Shown here: one piece after another, positions 13,713 through 40,079 of the stretch
How the letters are laid out: each line of letters begins with the position of its first letter
How positions within the stretch are numbered: position 1 is the stretch's first letter
NCBI RefSeq assembly: GCF_004785645.1
Contig: NZ_SRPE01000003.1
Span: 186,001-250,000, forward strand
Direction of reading: 5' to 3'
Source of the DNA: Empedobacter tilapiae
Lineage (GTDB): Bacteria > Bacteroidota > Bacteroidia > Flavobacteriales > Weeksellaceae
Length of the DNA stretch: 64,000 bases
Notes under the pieces: generated by a model
Told to the model about the DNA's origin: nothing
Databases searched by the model: none
The model's input: only the letters and a program-made list of their open reading frames with translations
Translations under genes and position numbers: made by a program

Positions 13713-13887
13713 AGTTTTAAAGTTTAAATAATAATTGTTTTTGTTGGTTACAAATTTAATTTGTCCATCTTTCTTAAAAATCACTAGATATAATGATTTT
13801 GAATATTGTACAAATAAAATAAATCTGATCTTAATATAAGGTTAAGGATTTAACAATCTACTTATTATAATATCAATCGGTTTTCTT

Positions 13888-13895
13888 TACATTTG
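13888..13895 (+). promoter_or_regulatory. Candidate -7 promoter element upstream of the B12 riboswitch
   Basis: TACATTTG fits TAnnTTTG and would start transcription right before the riboswitch core at about 13903. No clear TTTG -33 box is present at the expected spacing. Confidence 0.5.
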
Positions 13896-13899
13896 TACA

Positions 13900-14045
13900 A
13901 AATGGTGCTCAACGAGTGAGTTAAAAGGGAATTTGGTTCAATTCCAAAACTGTCCCCGCAACTGTAAATTCTAATATACTTTTTGTAAAAGAATAAGTCA
14001 GGAAACCTGCCATTGCTAACTAATAATAGAAAATGTTTTCGGAGG
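13900..14045 (+). ncRNA. Cobalamin (adenosylcobalamin/B12) riboswitch
   Basis: The segment contains the ordered conserved blocks of the B12 box: GGTGCTC near the 5' end, AAAGGGAA, a pairing arm ATTTGG/CCAAAA, the core CCCCGCAACTGTAAAT, and GTCAGGAAACCTGCC. It stands 16 or so bases before the ATG of a BtuB-like receptor, with a GGAGGAA purine stretch (14041-14047) at the ribosome position that an expression platform could mask. Class members bind cobalamins and turn off downstream uptake genes when B12 is plentiful, here by either termination or translation control; no separate terminator is clear. Confidence 0.93.
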
Positions 14046-23769: not shown

Positions 23770-24106
23770 ATATTTACACGTTACTTTTCTTAATTAATTT
23801 TTGAGTTGATAATGTTTTTTTGTGGTGGTTTGATGATTTCATAGAACATAATTTTTACTTTTTTCGCGAAAGCTTTTGATTAATTATTAACTCAATTTAG
23901 TGGCATTCTGACTTATCAAAAATATTGATTTACAGTTGCGCGACAGTTCGTGAATTACACACGATTCCCCAATAAGTTGAGCACGAATTTGCTGCAAATA
24001 TAGATTAGAAAAATGAAAATTTACAGATTTATTGTGCCGAATTCGTTGGTTTGGAATAATTCGTGTAAATTCATTTTCCGAATTTTTAATGAAGTAAGAA
24101 ACAAGA
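23770..24106. other. Intergenic region without a recognised gene
   Basis: No convincing ORF or RNA. It holds a 10-bp palindrome TTTCGCGAAA (23872-23881) and a minus-strand TATATTTG (24002-23995) that fits a -7 promoter element but is 230 bases from the thioesterase start. The stretch around 23945-24060 is richer in G and C than the rest and has no repeat that I can support. It probably contains the divergent promoters. Confidence 0.5.
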
Positions 24107-31686: not shown

Positions 31687-31687
31687 G

Positions 31688-31762
31688 TCGGGGTGGCAGG
31701 ATTCGAACCTGCGACCTCCTGCTCCCAAAGCAGGCGCGATGACCGGGCTACGCTACACCCCG
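31688..31762 (-). tRNA. tRNA-Pro (UGG), copy 1
   Basis: Minus-strand cloverleaf: acceptor CGGGGTG/CACCCCG, anticodon stem CCTGC/GCAGG with loop TTTGGGA giving anticodon TGG, T arm with GTTCGAATC. Identical to the two other copies in this array. CCA is not encoded. Confidence 0.95.
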
Positions 31763-31782
31763 ATTCGGTCATTCAAAAAAAG

Positions 31783-31866
31783 CGGAGAGACAGGGACTCG
31801 AACCCTGGCATCGGTTTCCCGATGACAGATTAGCAATCTGCTCCATTACCGCTCTGGCACCTCTCC
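31783..31866 (-). tRNA. tRNA-Ser (GCU)
   Basis: 84-base class II tRNA: acceptor GGAGAGG/TCTCTCC (one G-T pair), anticodon loop TTGCTAA giving GCT, a long variable arm CATCGGGAAACCGATG, and G73 discriminator typical of serine tRNA. Confidence 0.95.
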
Positions 31867-31885
31867 TAGTTTTTAATAAAACGTG

Positions 31886-31959
31886 TGATCCAGTCAGGAT
31901 TCGAACCTGAGACCTACTGCTTAGAAGGCAGTTGCTCTATCCAGCTGAGCTACTGGACC
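31886..31959 (-). tRNA. tRNA-Arg (UCU)
   Basis: Acceptor GGTCCAG/CTGGATC, anticodon loop CTTCTAA giving TCT, T arm CTCAGG/CCTGAC-type with GTTCGAATC. Reads AGA and AGG codons. Confidence 0.95.
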
Positions 31960-31983
31960 GATCCAAAAATTCATTGAATTTTG

Positions 31984-32058
31984 TCGGGGTGGCAGGATTC
32001 GAACCTGCGACCTCCTGCTCCCAAAGCAGGCGCGATGACCGGGCTACGCTACACCCCG
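31984..32058 (-). tRNA. tRNA-Pro (UGG), copy 2
   Basis: Identical to copy 1 including the flanking GATTCGGTCATTC upstream on the minus strand, which indicates a recent duplication. Confidence 0.95.
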
Positions 32059-32108
32059 ATTCGGTCATTCTTTACGATAAATCTTTCTATTTTCGGATGA
32101 AAATTTTG

Positions 32109-32183
32109 TCGGGGTGGCAGGATTCGAACCTGCGACCTCCTGCTCCCAAAGCAGGCGCGATGACCGGGCTACGCTACACCCCG
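32109..32183 (-). tRNA. tRNA-Pro (UGG), copy 3
   Basis: Identical tRNA sequence to copies 1 and 2 but with different upstream flank. It is the first gene of the array and lies behind a consensus promoter. Confidence 0.95.
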
Positions 32184-32243: not shown

Positions 32244-33428
32244 TTAAGAATATTTTTCGGAAACTTTCATATATGTTTCTAAATCTTTATCTCCTCTCCC
32301 TGAAAGGTTCAGAACCACAATGTCTTGCGGTTTAAAATTAATTTTTTCTAAAGCAGCTAAAGCGTGAGAAGATTCTAATGCAGGAATGATTCCTTCCTCT
32401 TTTGTCAACATAAAAGCTGCTTCCAAGGCTTCATCATCTGTTGCATTTAAGAATTCAGCACGTCCAGTTTTGAACAAATGCGCATGTAAAGGACCAACTC
32501 CAGGATAGTCTAATCCAGCAGAAATAGAATAAGGTTCAACAATTTGTCCATCTTTATCTTGCATCAATAATGTTCGACTTCCATGAATAATTCCTTCCGT
32601 TCCTTTAATCGTTGTCGCAGCAGTTTCTCCAGATTCTACACCTAAACCAGCAGCTTCAACCGCGATTAATTTTACTTCTTCGTTATCCAAAAAGTGATAA
32701 AAAGCTCCTGCAGCATTACTTCCACCTCCAACACAAGCAATCACATAATCAGGATTTTCTTTCTCATATTTCTCTTTCATTTGCGCTTTAATTTCTTCCG
32801 AAATAATCGCTTGAAATTTGGTTACCATTGCAGGATAAGGATGAGGTCCAACAACAGAACCAATAATATAAAAAGTTTCAGGATTATTGATCCAATAACG
32901 GATTGCTTCATTTGTTGCATCTTTCAATGTTTTACTTCCCGAAGTTGCAGGAATCACCTCTGCTCCTAACATTTTCATTCGCGCAACATTTGGTGCTTGA
33001 CGAGCAATGTCAATTTCTCCCATAAAAACGATACATTCTAATCCCATCAACGCACAAACAGTAGCAGTAGCAACACCATGTTGTCCAGCACCAGTTTCGG
33101 CAATAATTTTGGTTTTGCCCATTCGTTTTGCTAAAAGTGCTTGACCAATTGCATTGTTGATTTTATGCGCTCCTGTATGATTCAAATCTTCACGCTTTAA
33201 TAAAATATTGGTGTTATATTTTTTTGAAAGATTTGGTGCAAAATACAATGGACTTGGACGTCCAACATAATCTTTTAGTAATAAATTAAATTCGTTTTTG
33301 AATTCGTCTGTATCGACATATTTTGCTAAAGCTTCTGATAATTCTTCACAATTATGATGTAATAATTCCGGAATAAATGCTCCTCCAAATTCACCATAAA
33401 AACCTTTTTCGTCAACTTCGTATTTCAT
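32244..33428 (-). CDS. trpB: Tryptophan synthase beta chain
   Basis: 394 residues covering the complete beta subunit: PLP lysine 89 in [10 protein letters not shown], catalytic Glu111 in [19 protein letters not shown] phosphate loop, and the C-terminal SGRGDKD. It condenses indole with serine to tryptophan. It is the last gene of the trp operon; trpA does not follow, and the next features are tRNAs. This matters because indole from indole-glycerol phosphate normally needs TrpA. Thirteen bases separate it from trpF. Confidence 0.96.
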
Positions 33429-33440
33429 TTTGTTTCTTTT

Positions 33441-34112
33441 TTAATTTTGCTCAATTCGTCCATCAATTGTATCGATAAACTGTTTTACTTCGTCAGTTTT
33501 TTTTATTCCTGGTGCTGACTCAAAACCACTATTGATATCAAATCCAATACATCTCGGATGTTGAAAATTTTTCAAGATCAATGCATCCTCAAGAGTTATT
33601 CCGCCACTTAATAAAAAGGGTGTTGATAACTGATAGTTTGTTAACAATTGCCAATCAAATTTCTTTCCTGTTCCACCATAATTAATTGATTTTGTGTCAA
33701 AAACAAAACCGTCAACAACTTGTTGATAAGTGGTTAATTGTTGAAAATCTTCAATCGATTTTATACCAACAGCTTTCCAAATTTTAAAGTCCAAAAAGCT
33801 TTCATCAGTTAGTAATCGTTGATGTTTTTGATTGATTAATTCTTCACAAAAGTTTGCTGTTTCATCACCATGTAATTGGACAACATCTAATTTATATTGT
33901 TCAACTTTTTCGAGAATATTTTCGATGAATTCATTCACGAAAACGCCAACTTTTTCTGCATTTGGAAAAACTTCAAAAATAGATTCGTCTTCTATAAATC
34001 GTTTTGATTTTGGATAGAAAATAAATCCAACATAATCAGGTTCGATTGCTGCAATTTCTTTGAAATTTTCTACGTTATTATTTCCGCAAACTTTTACTTG
34101 AAAGCGTTTCAT
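33441..34112 (-). CDS. trpF: Phosphoribosylanthranilate isomerase
   Basis: 223 residues of a (beta/alpha)8 barrel: catalytic Cys9 in VKVCGN, Asp in GFVFDTKS near residue 136, LLSGGITLEDA, and FDINSGFES with GIKK near the C-terminus (phosphate site). It converts phosphoribosylanthranilate to CdRP in step three of tryptophan synthesis. Its start overlaps the trpC stop by four bases (ATGA type), so expression is coupled. Confidence 0.95.
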   Translation of the reverse strand: MKRFQVKVCGNNNVENFKEIAAIEPDYVGFIFYPKSKRFIEDESIFEVFPNAEKVGVFVNEFIENILEKVEQYKLDVVQLHGDETANFCEELINQKHQRLLTDESFLDFKIWKAVGIKSIEDFQQLTTYQQVVDGFVFDTKSINYGGTGKKFDWQLLTNYQLSTPFLLSGGITLEDALILKNFQHPRCIGFDINSGFESAPGIKKTDEVKQFIDTIDGRIEQN

Positions 34113-34894
34113 TTAGATTCTTTTACGAATTGTTCAAATGCTAAACAAGGATTTTCAGCTTTCATAAAATTTTCACCAATCAAAAAAGCTTGAAAACCAG
34201 CTTGTCTTAATTCTTTTACTGTTTTAGGATCAGAAATTCCACTTTCCGCAACTTTGATTAAATCGGTTGGTAACTGTTTCAAGATTTGTTTTGATTTCTC
34301 AATATCAACTTCAAAATTTTTCAAATTACGGTTGTTAATTCCAATTAAATCAATGAATTCATTTACTTTTTCCAATTGATCTTCAGAATGTAATTCTAGC
34401 AAAACTTCTAACCCAATTTCTTTAGCTGTTTTCGATAAATGATAGACTTCATCTTTCGTCAAACATTCTGCAATCAACAACATTAAATCCGCACCAATTG
34501 CTTTTGTTTCATAAACTTGAAATTCATCAACAATAAAATCTTTGCGTAAAACTGGAATATTCAAAACTTCTTTTGCTTGATTCAAATCATCAAAACTTCC
34601 ACCAAAAAATTGTTCATCTGTCAAAACAGAAACCACAGAAGCACCAAATTTCTCGTAACCCGAAACGACTTCTTTTACGTTTGCATCTTTGTTGATAAAA
34701 CCTTTTGAAGGTGATTTTCGTTTAAATTCTGCAATAATTCCAGATTTTGATTCATCTAAAATAGAAACTTTTGCAGATTTTACAGGAAGCAAGAAATTTT
34801 CTGAATTTCTAAAACTTTCGATTGATTGAGTTTTCTGTTTTTCTAAAATTTCAACACGTTTTTGCGCGACAATTTCGTCTAATATCGTTTTCAT
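34109..34894 (-). CDS. trpC: Indole-3-glycerol phosphate synthase
   Basis: 261 residues with the full barrel: IIAEFKRKSPSKG with catalytic lysine, VLTDEQFFGGSFDDL, PVLRKDFIVDEFQVYE, GINNRNLKNFEVD and VAESGISDP, typical of TrpC. Start overlaps the trpD stop and the stop overlaps trpF start. It makes indole-glycerol phosphate, whose next step normally requires TrpA, which is not encoded in this cluster. Confidence 0.96.
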   Translation of the reverse strand: MKTILDEIVAQKRVEILEKQKTQSIESFRNSENFLLPVKSAKVSILDESKSGIIAEFKRKSPSKGFINKDANVKEVVSGYEKFGASVVSVLTDEQFFGGSFDDLNQAKEVLNIPVLRKDFIVDEFQVYETKAIGADLMLLIAECLTKDEVYHLSKTAKEIGLEVLLELHSEDQLEKVNEFIDLIGINNRNLKNFEVDIEKSKQILKQLPTDLIKVAESGISDPKTVKELRQAGFQAFLIGENFMKAENPCLAFEQFVKESK

Positions 34895-35877
34895 GGTTTC
34901 ATTAATTTTTGGAATACATTTAATGCTTTTTTACTGTCTAAACTTTCGTTCGCAATCGCTACACATTCTATTAAATCTTTGTTTGGATAAATTGTTTTAA
35001 GCGCTAAAGCAGCGTTTGCTAACACAACTTCTTTTTGTGCTTTGGTTGAATTTCCTTCTAAAACGCTCAAAAATATTTTAGAATTTTCTTCGATTGATTT
35101 TCCGCCTTTTATCTCATCAGGTTGAAGAATACTTAAACCAAAATCTTTACTTTCTAAAACAAATTCACCCGAATTATTGTACACTTTTGTAGGCGATGTC
35201 AACGAAATTTCATCATAACCAGCCAACGCAGTTGAAATCGAATATCGAATGTTTGAATTTTGCATTACATAATGATATAATCGAGCAGTTTTAACATCGT
35301 ATGTTCCTAAATTTTGAAATTCTGGTTGAACAGGATTCACTAAAGGTCCCATTAAATTGAAAAATGTTTTTACCGCCAAACCTTTTCTAATCGGAGCAAC
35401 TTTAGCTAAAGCCGGATGAAAAAGAGGTGCATGTAAAAAAGTAATCCCAACTTTGTCGAATTCACGTTTTAGTTTATCTTGATTAACAGAAAATTCGTAA
35501 CCAAAATTATCCAACATATTCGAAGAACCGCTCACAGAGGACGCTCCATAATTTCCTTGTTTGATAATTTTTTCACCAGCTCCGGCCAAAACAAAACAGC
35601 TCAATGTAGAAATATTGAAGGTGTCTTTTCCATCTCCACCCGTTCCTACAACATCAATCGCTTGTTTTGGTAAATTTATTTTTATGCATAAATCTAATAA
35701 CGCTTGACGATAACCTTTTAATTCCTCTAATGTAATATTACGCATATTAAAAATGGTTACAAAAGAAGCTAATTCAACAGCTGAATATTTTTCTTCCGAA
35801 ATTTCCACCATAATTTGATACGCTTCATCTTCGCTCAAGGTATAATTTTCGAATAATAAATTTAATAATTTTTTCAT
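34891..35877 (-). CDS. trpD: Anthranilate phosphoribosyltransferase
   Basis: 328 residues with AIDVVGTGGDGKDTFNIST (PRPP binding), KQGNYGASSVSGSSNMLDNFGYEF and NLMGPLVNPVQPE, in the family order. It transfers phosphoribose to anthranilate. It follows trpG by four bases and overlaps trpC by four, so it is in the operon core. Confidence 0.95.
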   Translation of the reverse strand: MKKLLNLLFENYTLSEDEAYQIMVEISEEKYSAVELASFVTIFNMRNITLEELKGYRQALLDLCIKINLPKQAIDVVGTGGDGKDTFNISTLSCFVLAGAGEKIIKQGNYGASSVSGSSNMLDNFGYEFSVNQDKLKREFDKVGITFLHAPLFHPALAKVAPIRKGLAVKTFFNLMGPLVNPVQPEFQNLGTYDVKTARLYHYVMQNSNIRYSISTALAGYDEISLTSPTKVYNNSGEFVLESKDFGLSILQPDEIKGGKSIEENSKIFLSVLEGNSTKAQKEVVLANAALALKTIYPNKDLIECVAIANESLDSKKALNVFQKLMKP

Positions 35878-35881
35878 AGTC

Positions 35882-36445
35882 TTAAGCCTCTAACCAATTT
35901 TTAATCATCTCATCTCCAAGTGGCGTCAAAATAGATTCTGGATGAAACTGAACACCACGAACATCGTAGGTTTTATGACGCAAAGCCATTATTTCTCCTT
36001 TTGGACCAACTGCTGTAATTTCTAATTCTTCAGGAAAATATTCGTTCGAAACTACCCAAGAATGGTAACGTCCAACTTCTATTTTTTTTGGTAAATTATG
36101 GAATAACACTTCGTCTTTTATCACTTCAATTGTTGATTCAACTCCGTGAAAAACTTCTTGTGTATTTAATAATTTTCCACCAAAAACCTCTCCAATTGCT
36201 TGTTGTCCTAAACAAACACCAAAAATAGATTTTGTTGTAGCATATTTCTCAATGATTGGTTTTAATAAATTGGCTTCATCAGGAACTCCTGGACCTGGAG
36301 AAAGTAATATTTTATCATAATTATTTACCTCTTCCAAAGTAATTCCATCATTGCGAACGACGGTAATATCATCGGCGAATTTCTTTAGCGAATGCACTAA
36401 ATTATAGGTGAAAGAATCGTAATTATCGATAACTAAAATTTTCAT
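35882..36445 (-). CDS. trpG: Anthranilate synthase component II (glutamine amidotransferase)
   Basis: 187 residues of a class I amidotransferase: oxyanion SPGPGVP, nucleophile Cys78 in GVCLGQQA, and the His168/Glu170 pair in FHPES. It supplies ammonia to TrpE. The symbol is trpG rather than pabA because of the position between trpE and trpD; a shared role in folate synthesis is possible. Confidence 0.93.
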   Translation of the reverse strand: MKILVIDNYDSFTYNLVHSLKKFADDITVVRNDGITLEEVNNYDKILLSPGPGVPDEANLLKPIIEKYATTKSIFGVCLGQQAIGEVFGGKLLNTQEVFHGVESTIEVIKDEVLFHNLPKKIEVGRYHSWVVSNEYFPEELEITAVGPKGEIMALRHKTYDVRGVQFHPESILTPLGDEMIKNWLEA

Positions 36446-36448
36446 AGT

Positions 36449-37843
36449 TTATAGGTTTTGAGCGATTTCTATTGAGCGACGAAGCGCTCCTAATTTATGA
36501 TTGACTTCTTGTAATTCATTTTCTTCGACCGATTTGGAAACAACTCCAGCACCAGCCTGAAAATATAAGGTATTTTGTTTGCTGACGAACGTACGAATCG
36601 CAATCGCCATATTGATATCTCCGTTAAAACCTAAATAGCCAATTCCACCACCATAAACGCCACGATTTTGATTTTCGTAACCGTCTAACAATTCCATTGC
36701 TTTGAATTTTGGTGCACCAGAAAGTGTTCCAGCAGGAAAAGAATCTGCAAAAACTTTCATTGTATTCACGCTAGGATTCAATTGCGCAGTTACTTTCGAA
36801 ACCATGTGAATCACATGCGAGAAATACTGAATTTCTTTGTATTGCGCAACTTTTACATCAGTAGAATTTCGACTCAAATCATTTCGAGCCAAATCGACTA
36901 ACATCACATGCTCTTCGTTTTCTTTAGGATCAGCGATTAATTTTTCGGTTAATTCTTTGTCCAAAGTTGGACTTCCAGTTCTACGAACCGTTCCTGCAAT
37001 TGGATGAATTTCTGCATGATTATTATTGATGATAATTTGCGCTTCTGGTGAAGAACCGAAGATTTTATAATTTCCGTAATCGAAATAAAACAAATAAGGC
37101 GAAGGATTTACCGAACGTAAAATGCGGTAAACATTGAATTCATCACCCGAAAATTTTTGTTTGAATTGACGAGAAGGAACAATCTGAAAGACATCTCCAC
37201 GAAAACAAGATTGTTTACATTTTGTCACCATTTCTTTGAATTCGTCATCCGTTAAATTCGATTGAATTTCACTTTCCACATTAAATGGATATTCAACAAT
37301 TGATTTGTTATAAACAACACTTTTTATTTCAGAAAATTTAGAAATTGTTTGTTCATTTTGATATTCGATAAATTGAATTTCATTGTGAAAATGATTGAAG
37401 ACCACAATATTTTGATAGAACGAATATGAAAATTCTGGGATCGTTGCTTCATTTCCTTTTGCCGAAAATTTTACTGTTTCGAAATGTGGAATAGCGTCCC
37501 AAGCAATGTATCCAAACAAACCATTTACAGGTAAATCTTCTCCATTTTGAATCATAAACTGACTTGTAAATTCTTTGAATTTTTCTGTCAATTCTTGACT
37601 ATTCAACGCATATTCTTTTGTTTCTCCATTTACATACGTTTCATTTACCATTCCGTTTGTAACCTTAAAAGTTGCGATCGGATTAAGGCAAATAAAAGAG
37701 TTAGCATCTGTCTTCGAATGATAGTCAGAACTCTCTAATAATAAGGTATTTGGATAAATATCTCGAAGTTTCAAATAAAGCTGAACAGGAGTCGTTAAAT
37801 CCGCTAAAACAGTTTCTTTCTGTATATTAAAAGTTAAATTCAT
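36449..37843 (-). CDS. trpE: Anthranilate synthase component I
   Basis: 464 residues with the N-terminal LLES motif (about 35-38) of the tryptophan feedback site, the chorismate-binding domain ESSPEAQ-like GSSPEAQIII, PIAGTVRRTG, DLARNDL and SFPAGTLSGAPKFKAMELL. It converts chorismate to anthranilate. It is the first structural gene of the operon and lies 22 bases after the attenuator terminator, so its expression is controlled twice: by the leader and by allosteric tryptophan binding. Confidence 0.96.
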   Translation of the reverse strand: MNLTFNIQKETVLADLTTPVQLYLKLRDIYPNTLLLESSDYHSKTDANSFICLNPIATFKVTNGMVNETYVNGETKEYALNSQELTEKFKEFTSQFMIQNGEDLPVNGLFGYIAWDAIPHFETVKFSAKGNEATIPEFSYSFYQNIVVFNHFHNEIQFIEYQNEQTISKFSEIKSVVYNKSIVEYPFNVESEIQSNLTDDEFKEMVTKCKQSCFRGDVFQIVPSRQFKQKFSGDEFNVYRILRSVNPSPYLFYFDYGNYKIFGSSPEAQIIINNNHAEIHPIAGTVRRTGSPTLDKELTEKLIADPKENEEHVMLVDLARNDLSRNSTDVKVAQYKEIQYFSHVIHMVSKVTAQLNPSVNTMKVFADSFPAGTLSGAPKFKAMELLDGYENQNRGVYGGGIGYLGFNGDINMAIAIRTFVSKQNTLYFQAGAGVVSKSVEENELQEVNHKLGALRRSIEIAQNL

Positions 37844-37865: not shown

Positions 37866-37902
37866 GCACAAAAAAAGGCTTGTCGGTTACGACAAGCCTT
37901 TT
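37866..37902 (-). terminator. Attenuator terminator of the trp operon
   Basis: On the minus strand a 13-bp stem AAAAGGCTTGTCG/CGACAAGCCTTTT with loop TAAC is followed by a T-run. It lies 23 bases beyond the leader-peptide stop and 22 before trpE. Confidence 0.9.
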
Positions 37903-37925
37903 CTACATATAACTGCATAGAGGTC

Positions 37926-37988
37926 TTACGAACCAACGTTTTGTTGTCCGATATTCCACCACCAGTTATTTGTAAATAATGTTTTCAT
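37926..37988 (-). CDS. trpL: trp operon leader peptide with three consecutive Trp codons
   Basis: A 20-codon frame on the minus strand starts at ATG 37988 and ends TAA 37926; the middle reads NNWWWNIG with three adjacent TGG codons. A terminator follows before trpE. This is the classic arrangement of a leader peptide whose stalled ribosome, under Trp-tRNA shortage, prevents terminator formation. A clean antiterminator arm could not be assigned: a GACAA in the leader can pair with TTGTC of the terminator stem but the pairing is short. The promoter ends five bases before this ATG, so the leader may be translated from a nearly leaderless RNA. Confidence 0.85.
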   Translation of the reverse strand: MKTLFTNNWWWNIGQQNVGS

Positions 37989-37993
37989 TGTGA

Positions 37994-38024
37994 CAAATTT
38001 AGAAAGGATTTTGAATTGTACAAA
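37994..38024 (-). promoter_or_regulatory. trp operon promoter
   Basis: On the minus strand TTTG (38024-38021), 19 bases, TAAATTTG (38001-37994), an exact TTTG-N19-TAnnTTTG fit. The -33 box begins right at the stop of the upstream LRR gene. Only five bases separate the -7 box from the trpL start. Confidence 0.75.
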
Positions 38025-40079
38025 TTATTTTTTGATAAATTTTGAAATTGTTTTTCCTTTCTCATTTTCAACTTCTACAACATAGATTCCTTTTGGAAAA
38101 CTATTTGTATCAATTGTAATTTTCTTTTTATTTGATACGTAAGATTCAATTATTTTTCCAGTTAAATCAATAATTTTAATTGAATTTTTGTTTGTATCAG
38201 TTTCTATATTTAATATATCTACAACTGGATTTGGATAGATTTTAACATCAGATTTAGTTAAATTATTTGTCGATAAAGTTCTTTCGCAAGGCTCTGTTGA
38301 GGTTGTAAGATTGTAAGGAATATCAGTTTGAGTTGTATTATTATAATAAGTTTCTCCAAAAGTCTGTTTGAATTTATTTACATCATCAACAATAATAAGT
38401 GGATTATCAGTGTCCTTTAAGTCTAAATTAAAATATGTATAATTAGTTAAAGATTTATTTCTGTAATCAATTGTTTTAGGAGAATTCCCTGCTACATACA
38501 AATAGATATCGTGATCATTACAAATATTTAATATTCCATCTAACTTATTTGGAATATTTGTTTTGATATTCTCAAAGCCAAAATACTTTAATAATGTTAC
38601 ATTTGGATCGGGATGTGTTAAATTAAAAAGTTTATTGAATTTGTTTGTTACATCCATTTCAACTGGAACATTCCAAAAATCTATCCAACTTAGGTTTGTT
38701 AATTTATCAAATTCTTTATCAAATTTAATTCTTGGTGTTTTTAAAACATTTGTATTATAATTATTAGCAAATCTATTTAACATTAAAGATTCTAAATTAA
38801 TATTATTACTAAAATCAATTTTCGGAAATAGTTCATCATCGATATATTCTATATACAAGTTTTTTAGATTAGTTAGTTTGTTAATATTAACAGGAATTTT
38901 ACTTACAGAAATATTTAAATACTCAAGATTTGTTAATTTTTCAACTCCATTTGGTAAAGAATAATCTTCTGGATGTAAATCAACTAATTGAGCTGGATCA
39001 TATTTATAAGTTAATTTTTTTAGATTATTTAAATTCTGTAAGTCAAGATTTTTTTTATTTGCATCATAAAAAAATAAAGTTAAATTTTCTAAACTATTAA
39101 CTTTCTCAAGAGGTTCCAATCCATCAATTTTATTTTGTCTAATTTCAAAAGATTGAAGATTTTTTAAGTTGCTAAAAGTTGTAGGAAGTTGAAGTTGATT
39201 TGTTCTAATTACTAAACTTTTTAAATTCGTTAAATTAGATATTTGAGTAGGTAAAATATTAAATCCGTTATAACTTTCTAAAACAATTTCTTCCAAGTTT
39301 TGAGAGTTACTCAAATTTGAAGGAAAGTTTTCAAAGCTACCTATCTGCGTGAATACTTTAAGATTAGGTAAATTACTAAAGAAATCATTATTCAAATCTC
39401 CTCTAAAACCTTCAATCGTTAATTTTTCTAATGAATCTTTAAAGCTTGAAAAATTATAATTATAGATATACTCATTATTTGAATTAAAAGGACTTATGCT
39501 AAAGTCTTTAATTTTATACTGAGTAGTAGACTCTAAAGTTGAATAGACTTCTCCATCGATTTTTAAAGAATGTAAACCTAAAGTATTCAAATTATTCAGG
39601 TTCTTAATCTTATCTAGATTAAAAACTTGTAATTCAACAGATTTGCTAATACCGCCTTTAAAGGAGAATGTTGTTAGATTTATTAAATTACTTAATTCAT
39701 GAAAATCGATTTGATACGTATTTTTAAATTCAGTTGTTTTAAAATTAGCACTTGCAGAAATTATCAAACTTTCTGACAAGTTAAATTGTTTTATTTCATT
39801 AGTGATATTAATAGTCTTAGAGTCTGTATTTTGATTCTGAGTAATATCAAAATTACTTATCTTTAAATTAATTAACTTTTCTTCACCATTTATAAATTTG
39901 AAATTAACATAAGAGCTAGATTCACTTGACGTATTAGGCTTTTCTGGTAATTCATAAATCCTTTTAGGATCCTTTTGTAGCTTTTGTAGTAAAGAAAGAT
40001 ATGCCTCTCTATCTGTATTAAACTGTCCAAAACTATTTGTTGCAAGAATTAATGCAAATAAAAATAAAATTTTTTTCAT
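38025..40079 (-). CDS. Secreted leucine-rich-repeat protein with T9SS sorting domain
   Basis: 684 residues: signal peptide (KKILFLFALILATNSFGQ), a long leucine-rich-repeat solenoid (repeated LxxLxxLxL units such as NLTNLKSLVI, NLKNLQSFEI, NLENLTLFFY, NLTNLEYLNI, KLTNLKNLYIE) and a C-terminal T9SS type A domain (VKIYPNPVVDILNIETD ... GIYVVEVENEKGKTISKFIKK). It should be displayed at the surface through the type IX system. LRR proteins often bind proteins or carbohydrates; the ligand is unknown. A minus-strand TATATTTG (40112-40105) lies 26 bases before the ATG. Confidence 0.86.
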   Translation of the reverse strand: MKKILFLFALILATNSFGQFNTDREAYLSLLQKLQKDPKRIYELPEKPNTSSESSSYVNFKFINGEEKLINLKISNFDITQNQNTDSKTINITNEIKQFNLSESLIISASANFKTTEFKNTYQIDFHELSNLINLTTFSFKGGISKSVELQVFNLDKIKNLNNLNTLGLHSLKIDGEVYSTLESTTQYKIKDFSISPFNSNNEYIYNYNFSSFKDSLEKLTIEGFRGDLNNDFFSNLPNLKVFTQIGSFENFPSNLSNSQNLEEIVLESYNGFNILPTQISNLTNLKSLVIRTNQLQLPTTFSNLKNLQSFEIRQNKIDGLEPLEKVNSLENLTLFFYDANKKNLDLQNLNNLKKLTYKYDPAQLVDLHPEDYSLPNGVEKLTNLEYLNISVSKIPVNINKLTNLKNLYIEYIDDELFPKIDFSNNINLESLMLNRFANNYNTNVLKTPRIKFDKEFDKLTNLSWIDFWNVPVEMDVTNKFNKLFNLTHPDPNVTLLKYFGFENIKTNIPNKLDGILNICNDHDIYLYVAGNSPKTIDYRNKSLTNYTYFNLDLKDTDNPLIIVDDVNKFKQTFGETYYNNTTQTDIPYNLTTSTEPCERTLSTNNLTKSDVKIYPNPVVDILNIETDTNKNSIKIIDLTGKIIESYVSNKKKITIDTNSFPKGIYVVEVENEKGKTISKFIKK

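Follow-up and report, generated by a model that had tools for sequence, protein, structure and literature searches.

Ribosome-mediated attenuation predicted for the trp operon of Empedobacter tilapiae, with a candidate antiterminator for the Bacteroid-trp RNA family

How is the trpEGDCFB operon of Empedobacter tilapiae controlled? The question is raised by the short stretch ahead of trpE in the 64,000 nucleotides of the genome analysed here (the window), which a preliminary description had read as a Trp-rich leader peptide followed by a terminator. The 20-codon minus-strand ORF that it placed at 37988-37926 is indeed present and translates as MKTLFTNNWWWNIGQQNVGS (Table 1); TGGTGGTGG occurs only twice in the 64 kb, both strands counted. 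The promoter it proposed, TTTG-N19-TAAATTTG ending five bases before the leader ATG, was recovered at 38024-37994 of the minus strand. Downstream of the stop codon, 23 nt lead to the terminator stem, a perfect helix of 13 bp (37902-37890 paired with 37885-37873), and 26 nt separate the end of the T-run from the start of trpE (37843), placing an intrinsic terminator between the leader ORF and the first structural gene. The hairpin had therefore been correctly described as a 13-bp structure 23 bases past the ORF and just upstream of trpE; of the interval assigned to it (37902-37866) the stem and T-run hold, while its end includes four extra bases (GTGC), the T-run ending at 37870. The folding energy of the leader is -42.7 kcal/mol, whereas shuffled versions average -22.3 +/- 3.3 (z -6.1), none of the 200 reaching as low.

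Table 1. Features of the trp leader and operon, in window coordinates
Feature	Position	Strand	Basis
Bacteroidota sigma-A type promoter: TTTG (38024-38021), N19, TAAATTTG -7 box (38001-37994)	37994..38024	-	sequence
Match to Rfam RF01692 Bacteroid-trp, 61.3 bits (cutoff 49), model 1-131	37891..38008	-	covariance model
Predicted transcription start, A of AUG or one base earlier (leaderless)	37988..37989	-	-7 box spacing
Leader peptide ORF, MKTLFTNNWWWNIGQQNVGS-stop; ATG at 37988, TAA ending 37926	37926..37988	-	sequence; kept in relatives
Region 1, 5′ strands of protector stem: outer 37974-37956, inner CGGACAAC 37950-37943	37943..37974	-	folding, comparison
Three consecutive Trp codons (sensor; predicted ribosome stall site)	37956..37964	-	sequence; invariant in 14-sequence alignment
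Region 2, GUUGGUUCG, end of leader ORF; partner region 1 or terminator loop + 3′ arm	37929..37937	-	comparison, folding
Outer 3′ strand of protector stem, paired over Trp codons	37904..37923	-	folding, comparison
Intrinsic terminator: 13-bp stem, UAAC loop, 7-T run (37876-37870)	37870..37902	-	sequence, folding
Antiterminator target AACCGAC: terminator loop + first 3′-arm bases	37882..37888	-	comparison
trpE, anthranilate synthase component I, first gene controlled	36449..37843	-	Pfam, NCBIfam
trpG, trpD, trpC, trpF, trpB	32244..36445	-	Pfam, NCBIfam

An element of this kind is already known and belongs to a catalogued RNA family, an entry that the preliminary description had missed. The match to RF01692 (Bacteroid-trp, the Bacteroidete tryptophan peptide leader) scores over the gathering cutoff, the downstream genes are trp genes of a member of the Bacteroidota, and the short ORF contains consecutive Trp codons. 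Weinberg et al. 2010 obtained the family in a comparative screen and reported it as a probable RNA and probable cis-regulator of Bacteroidetes (PMC2864571), and strong clues for leader-peptide attenuation of amino-acid operons have been reported in Flavobacterium psychrophilum (PMC9723704). The RF01692 model ends just before the terminator loop and therefore holds no antiterminator. Other Rfam candidates in the region (BTnc231, rli38 and others) scored far below their cutoffs, most of them overlapping the terminator hairpin, and were discarded. RF00513, the Rfam family of the enterobacterial trp leader, is not among the covariance model matches to the region even at E 10.

The extent of conservation was assessed on 80 TrpE loci picked by protein similarity alone, their leaders being ignored; one (L047) had no upstream sequence, leaving 79. 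A Trp-rich leader and a terminator precede trpE in 77 of these Bacteroidota loci, 74 detected automatically (an ATG ORF with adjacent Trp codons, plus a terminator) and three by eye (L044, WHW; L048, WWW; L089, WCW). The leader is absent from the other two, which come from Blattabacterium and Karelsulcia, both insect endosymbionts. A scan of 60 of these trpE loci gave 15 matches to RF01692 at its cutoff, and in the window's own family this cutoff is exceeded in 26 of 148 genomes. Among the family genomes that RF01692 misses, 38 of 40 fetched trpE upstream regions nevertheless carry a Trp leader and terminator, 37 found by script (L159 as WCW) and the 38th (L142) with a GTG start. In the remaining two (L127 and L128) the trpB coding sequence lies directly upstream of trpE, and in a locus of the same genus (L033) the leader sits before trpB. 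The nearest named TrpE relatives are Empedobacter species, with 97-98% identity. In 14 aligned sequences the ATG, the three Trp codons, the stem and the terminator are all kept, and the comparison of upstream regions of trpE that had been suggested as a check, Weeksellaceae included, found both the Trp-codon run preserved and compensatory changes.

Trp operons of other phyla are controlled by the trp repressor or by TRAP-like proteins, and a regulator of either type could govern this operon too, the small ORF being incidental. We regard this as highly improbable: neither Trp_repressor (PF01371) nor TrpBP (PF02081) has a profile match in the genome, control genomes being positive, and the run of Trp codons is conserved across the phylum. 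A constitutive terminator accompanied by a chance ORF, with no response to tryptophan, is equally hard to credit, given that a Trp-rich leader and a terminator are kept together at all but two of the assessed loci, that the region matches RF01692 and that its fold lies so far below the shuffles.

Attenuation by a ribosome calls attention to the alternative pairings of the leader. The protector stem pairs in 97.5% of cells among aligned relatives, compared with 30-42% when the alignment is slid. The preliminary description had resolved no antiterminator; one can be assigned by comparison, with compensatory changes. For each locus we determined which helix scores best between the terminator and the region downstream of the Trp codons. 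In the window, GUUGGUU (37937-37931, at the leader stop codon) is complementary to AACCGAC (37888-37882). Across many clades region 2 starts mostly 16-22 nt past the last Trp codon, over or near the leader stop codon, and its target is the terminator loop, usually together with the top of the 3′ arm: GUUGGUU(C) pairs with (G)AACCGAC in Empedobacter and kin, GUCGUGA with UCACGAC in Flavobacterium, and CGGGGU with ACCCCG in Marinilabilia and kin. In Dyadobacter the target is the loop plus the 5′ arm (AGAUGGACA with UGUUCAUCU), and in Chryseobacterium-like clades (g26, g9 and g21, a label guessed from their leader peptides) the partner of region 2 is, as in classical attenuators, the 5′ arm (UCAAAGUCUU with AAGACUUUGA).

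Taken alone, the antiterminator of the window (7 bp and a possible bulged extension) falls short of significance (p 0.095), and its weight hence comes from relatives. Single-locus significance is moderate, 49 of 93 distinct loci being below 0.05. A compensatory change is visible among close relatives (GUUGGUUC with GAACCGAC versus GUUGAUUC with GAAUCGAC, a G-U intermediate occurring in another species), and covariation within close relatives alone is slight and non-significant, 79 of 500 shuffles doing as well. Because pair counting among close relatives is uninformative, we used a cross-clade swap test and sliding controls. Over 33 sequence clusters, segments matched to their own loops had a mean score of 16.1, against 11.0 +/- 0.46 when the loops of other clusters were substituted (z 11; 0 of 20,000 permutations reached the own score). 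Two clades (13 distinct variants) were also aligned on anchors that the analyst chose by hand, so that some freedom remains; in this alignment 96.7% of cells pair, compared with 20-54% when slid, and three of the seven region 2-loop pairs are changed on both sides. Our first candidate, CGGACAA within the ORF facing UUGUCG in the 5′ arm of the terminator, was dropped on inspecting the alignment because the segment varies (GGACAAC, GAACAGC, GAGCAAC) while the arm stays fixed; this variation mostly preserves the pairing with region 2. Sequence and comparison thus show the anatomy, the family match and the conservation, and lend support to both the protector and the antiterminator pairings.

The pairing of region 2 with the loop could also be read as a pseudoknot with a shortened terminator, or as a means of tuning the terminator, attenuation being real and the true antiterminator lying elsewhere. 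Indeed, the region 2 pairing might in principle form alongside the outer terminator stem (AAAAGGCUU/AAGCCUUUU), the terminator is favoured in equilibrium folding, and the three Chryseobacterium-like clades use the 5′ arm instead. We nonetheless consider this reading unlikely: in many clades region 2 is placed so that a ribosome stalled on the Trp codons would expose it and one at the stop codon would hide it, and among the upstream segments of the window none has a higher score against the terminator.

To follow the preferred assignment, in which region 2 captures the terminator loop and 3′ arm, pairing probabilities were computed for the window at successive stages of 3′-arm emergence, a ribosome being represented by masking the RNA as far as about 13 nt past the first base of its A-site codon. 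Stalling on the Trp codons keeps the antiterminator at a probability of 0.9 or more up to the point where 7 (stall on W1) or 8 (W3) of the arm's 13 nt have emerged. If the ribosome is at the stop codon, or if there is none, this probability stays at 0 and 4-5 emerged nt of the arm suffice for the terminator to form. Since equilibrium always favours the complete terminator, the switch has to be a kinetic one, as in E. coli, whose trp leader was used as a positive control and gave the same pattern under the same treatment. By comparative pairing and folding, both computational, the antiterminator and the terminator would hence be mutually exclusive, the former being freed by a ribosome stalled for Trp. 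The element is probably a ribosome-mediated transcription attenuator of the trp operon, consisting of a WWW leader, a protector stem, a terminator, and a region 2 directed against the terminator loop and 3′ arm. The attenuation proposed by the preliminary description is in this way supported by the RF01692 match, by the near-universal Trp leader and terminator, by the compensatory changes in the antiterminator pairing and by the lack of TrpR and TRAP matches in the genome, and we infer it with good support.

The spacing of the promoter suggests how such a leader would be translated. In Flavobacterium the -7 box lies at -12 to -5 (PMC9723704, PMC6847099), and 4 or 5 nt from the box to the transcription start are the norm in F. 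johnsoniae (PMC6847099). Combined with the gap of 5 nt between box and ATG, this published position predicts a transcript that starts at the A of the AUG or one base before it, in keeping with the earlier remark that a 5′ UTR would be almost absent; the trp leader mRNA is thus predicted to be leaderless. The distance from box to start codon is 4-7 nt in most Weeksellaceae leaders and exactly 5 in 33 of 113 collected leaders, no exact box being found in 30, and some other clades have 18-32 nt. Leaderless mRNAs are a minority in F. psychrophilum (5.5%; PMC9723704). A precedent for a leaderless trp leader is the trpLE(G) attenuator of Sinorhizobium meliloti, whose transcript begins at the leader ATG (PMC7298713).

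We infer the following course of events, from start site and leader translation through stalling and antitermination to the response to tryptophan. Transcription would begin at or next to the AUG and ribosomes would load on the leaderless 5′ end. When charged tRNA-Trp is plentiful, the ribosome would reach the stop codon and cover region 2, the terminator would fold and RNA polymerase would come off ahead of trpE. A shortage of charged tRNA-Trp would make the ribosome stall on the Trp codons and open the protector stem, and the freed region 2 would capture the emerging terminator loop and 3′ arm, allowing the polymerase to read into trpEGDCFB. Were no ribosome present, region 2 would stay locked in the protector stem, making termination the default. 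The least certain of these steps is that capture of the loop and 3′ arm would be enough to block termination.

Comparison with known attenuators places the element more precisely. It shares with RF01692 the phylum, the gene context, the Trp-codon leader, the protector stem and the start of the terminator; the Rfam model differs in having neither terminator loop nor antiterminator and in finding, at its cutoff, only a quarter of the scanned loci. With the enterobacterial trpL of E. coli it has in common tandem Trp codons, the logic of protector, antiterminator and terminator, and the folding behaviour according to ribosome position. In contrast to E. coli, the Empedobacter leader has three Trp codons, a genome with no TrpR match and a predicted absence of 5′ UTR, and hence of a Shine-Dalgarno site. 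Furthermore, region 2 at the leader stop codon targets the terminator loop and 3′ arm, a departure from the textbook layout, which uses the 5′ arm. The S. meliloti rnTrpL/peTrpL system resembles it in its transcript start at the leader ATG, shown there and predicted here, and in the lack of a transcription repressor; it differs in being alphaproteobacterial, in its 14-aa peptide and in its known functions in trans (PMC7298713).

The surroundings of the operon, and other operons of the genome, were also inspected. The trpA gene lies about 35 kb from trpEGDCFB (G000:C21:259251-259973, outside the window); it immediately follows another gene and has no Trp leader. Five tRNA genes follow trpB (three tRNA-Pro, one Ser and one Arg; 31687-32183, minus strand), and the gene upstream of the trp leader (38025-40079) codes for a protein that has leucine-rich repeats and a type IX secretion sorting tail. 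Elsewhere in the window a Cobalamin riboswitch (RF00174) is matched at 13886-14028 and an AdoCbl-II riboswitch (RF01689) at 23893-23979. A family search for other operons of the genome showed leaders rich in His, Ile/Val/Leu, Thr and Phe ahead of hisG, ilvD, thrA and pheA, which speaks for the attenuation reading of the trp leader. Upstream of hisG (L171, G000:C21:317262-317726), the His leader MYTNQLHHHHHHTCTQASR is followed by a strong terminator, with a -7 box 19 nt before the ATG. Upstream of ilvD (L172, G000:C24:152993-153946), tandem leader-plus-terminator units, MKLVHNIINLIILVILSPKSGN and MQNNFVIIIIIILILVLRLGKVVL, form a double attenuator. The thrA-like gene and pheA (both in the L173/L175 set) are preceded by the Thr/Ile-rich leader MKQNGLNTIISITTTSSVHT and the Phe-rich leader MATFNYFNAFFFYFFGYYPQEQGLRCQN, respectively, each with a terminator after it. 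A SAM riboswitch-like sequence recognised by eye, GGAGGGAAATGGCCC...AGCAACC, followed by a terminator, lies upstream of a homoserine dehydrogenase gene (L174, C3).

No description of an RF01692 antiterminator was found in the openly accessible literature searched. What is added here, the assignment of the antiterminator and the phylum-wide conservation, is modest. On balance, we lean towards a variant attenuator common to much of the Bacteroidota (Empedobacter, Flavobacterium, distant Bacteroidales), in which a segment at the stop codon captures the terminator loop and the top of the 3′ arm rather than the 5′ arm, and which would be leaderless in Weeksellaceae; in Chryseobacterium-like clades and in Dyadobacter the target would be the 5′ arm or the loop plus 5′ arm. 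RF01692, catalogued and functionally sparse, can thereby be put to the test as a switch: its antiterminator is named, and specific point changes should abolish or restore its function. The conservation suggests that ribosome-mediated attenuation is the general mode of trp control across the Bacteroidota, far beyond the reach of the current Rfam model. The Empedobacter leader would also be an example from nature of control timed by the ribosome on an mRNA predicted to be leaderless, in a phylum without Shine-Dalgarno use.
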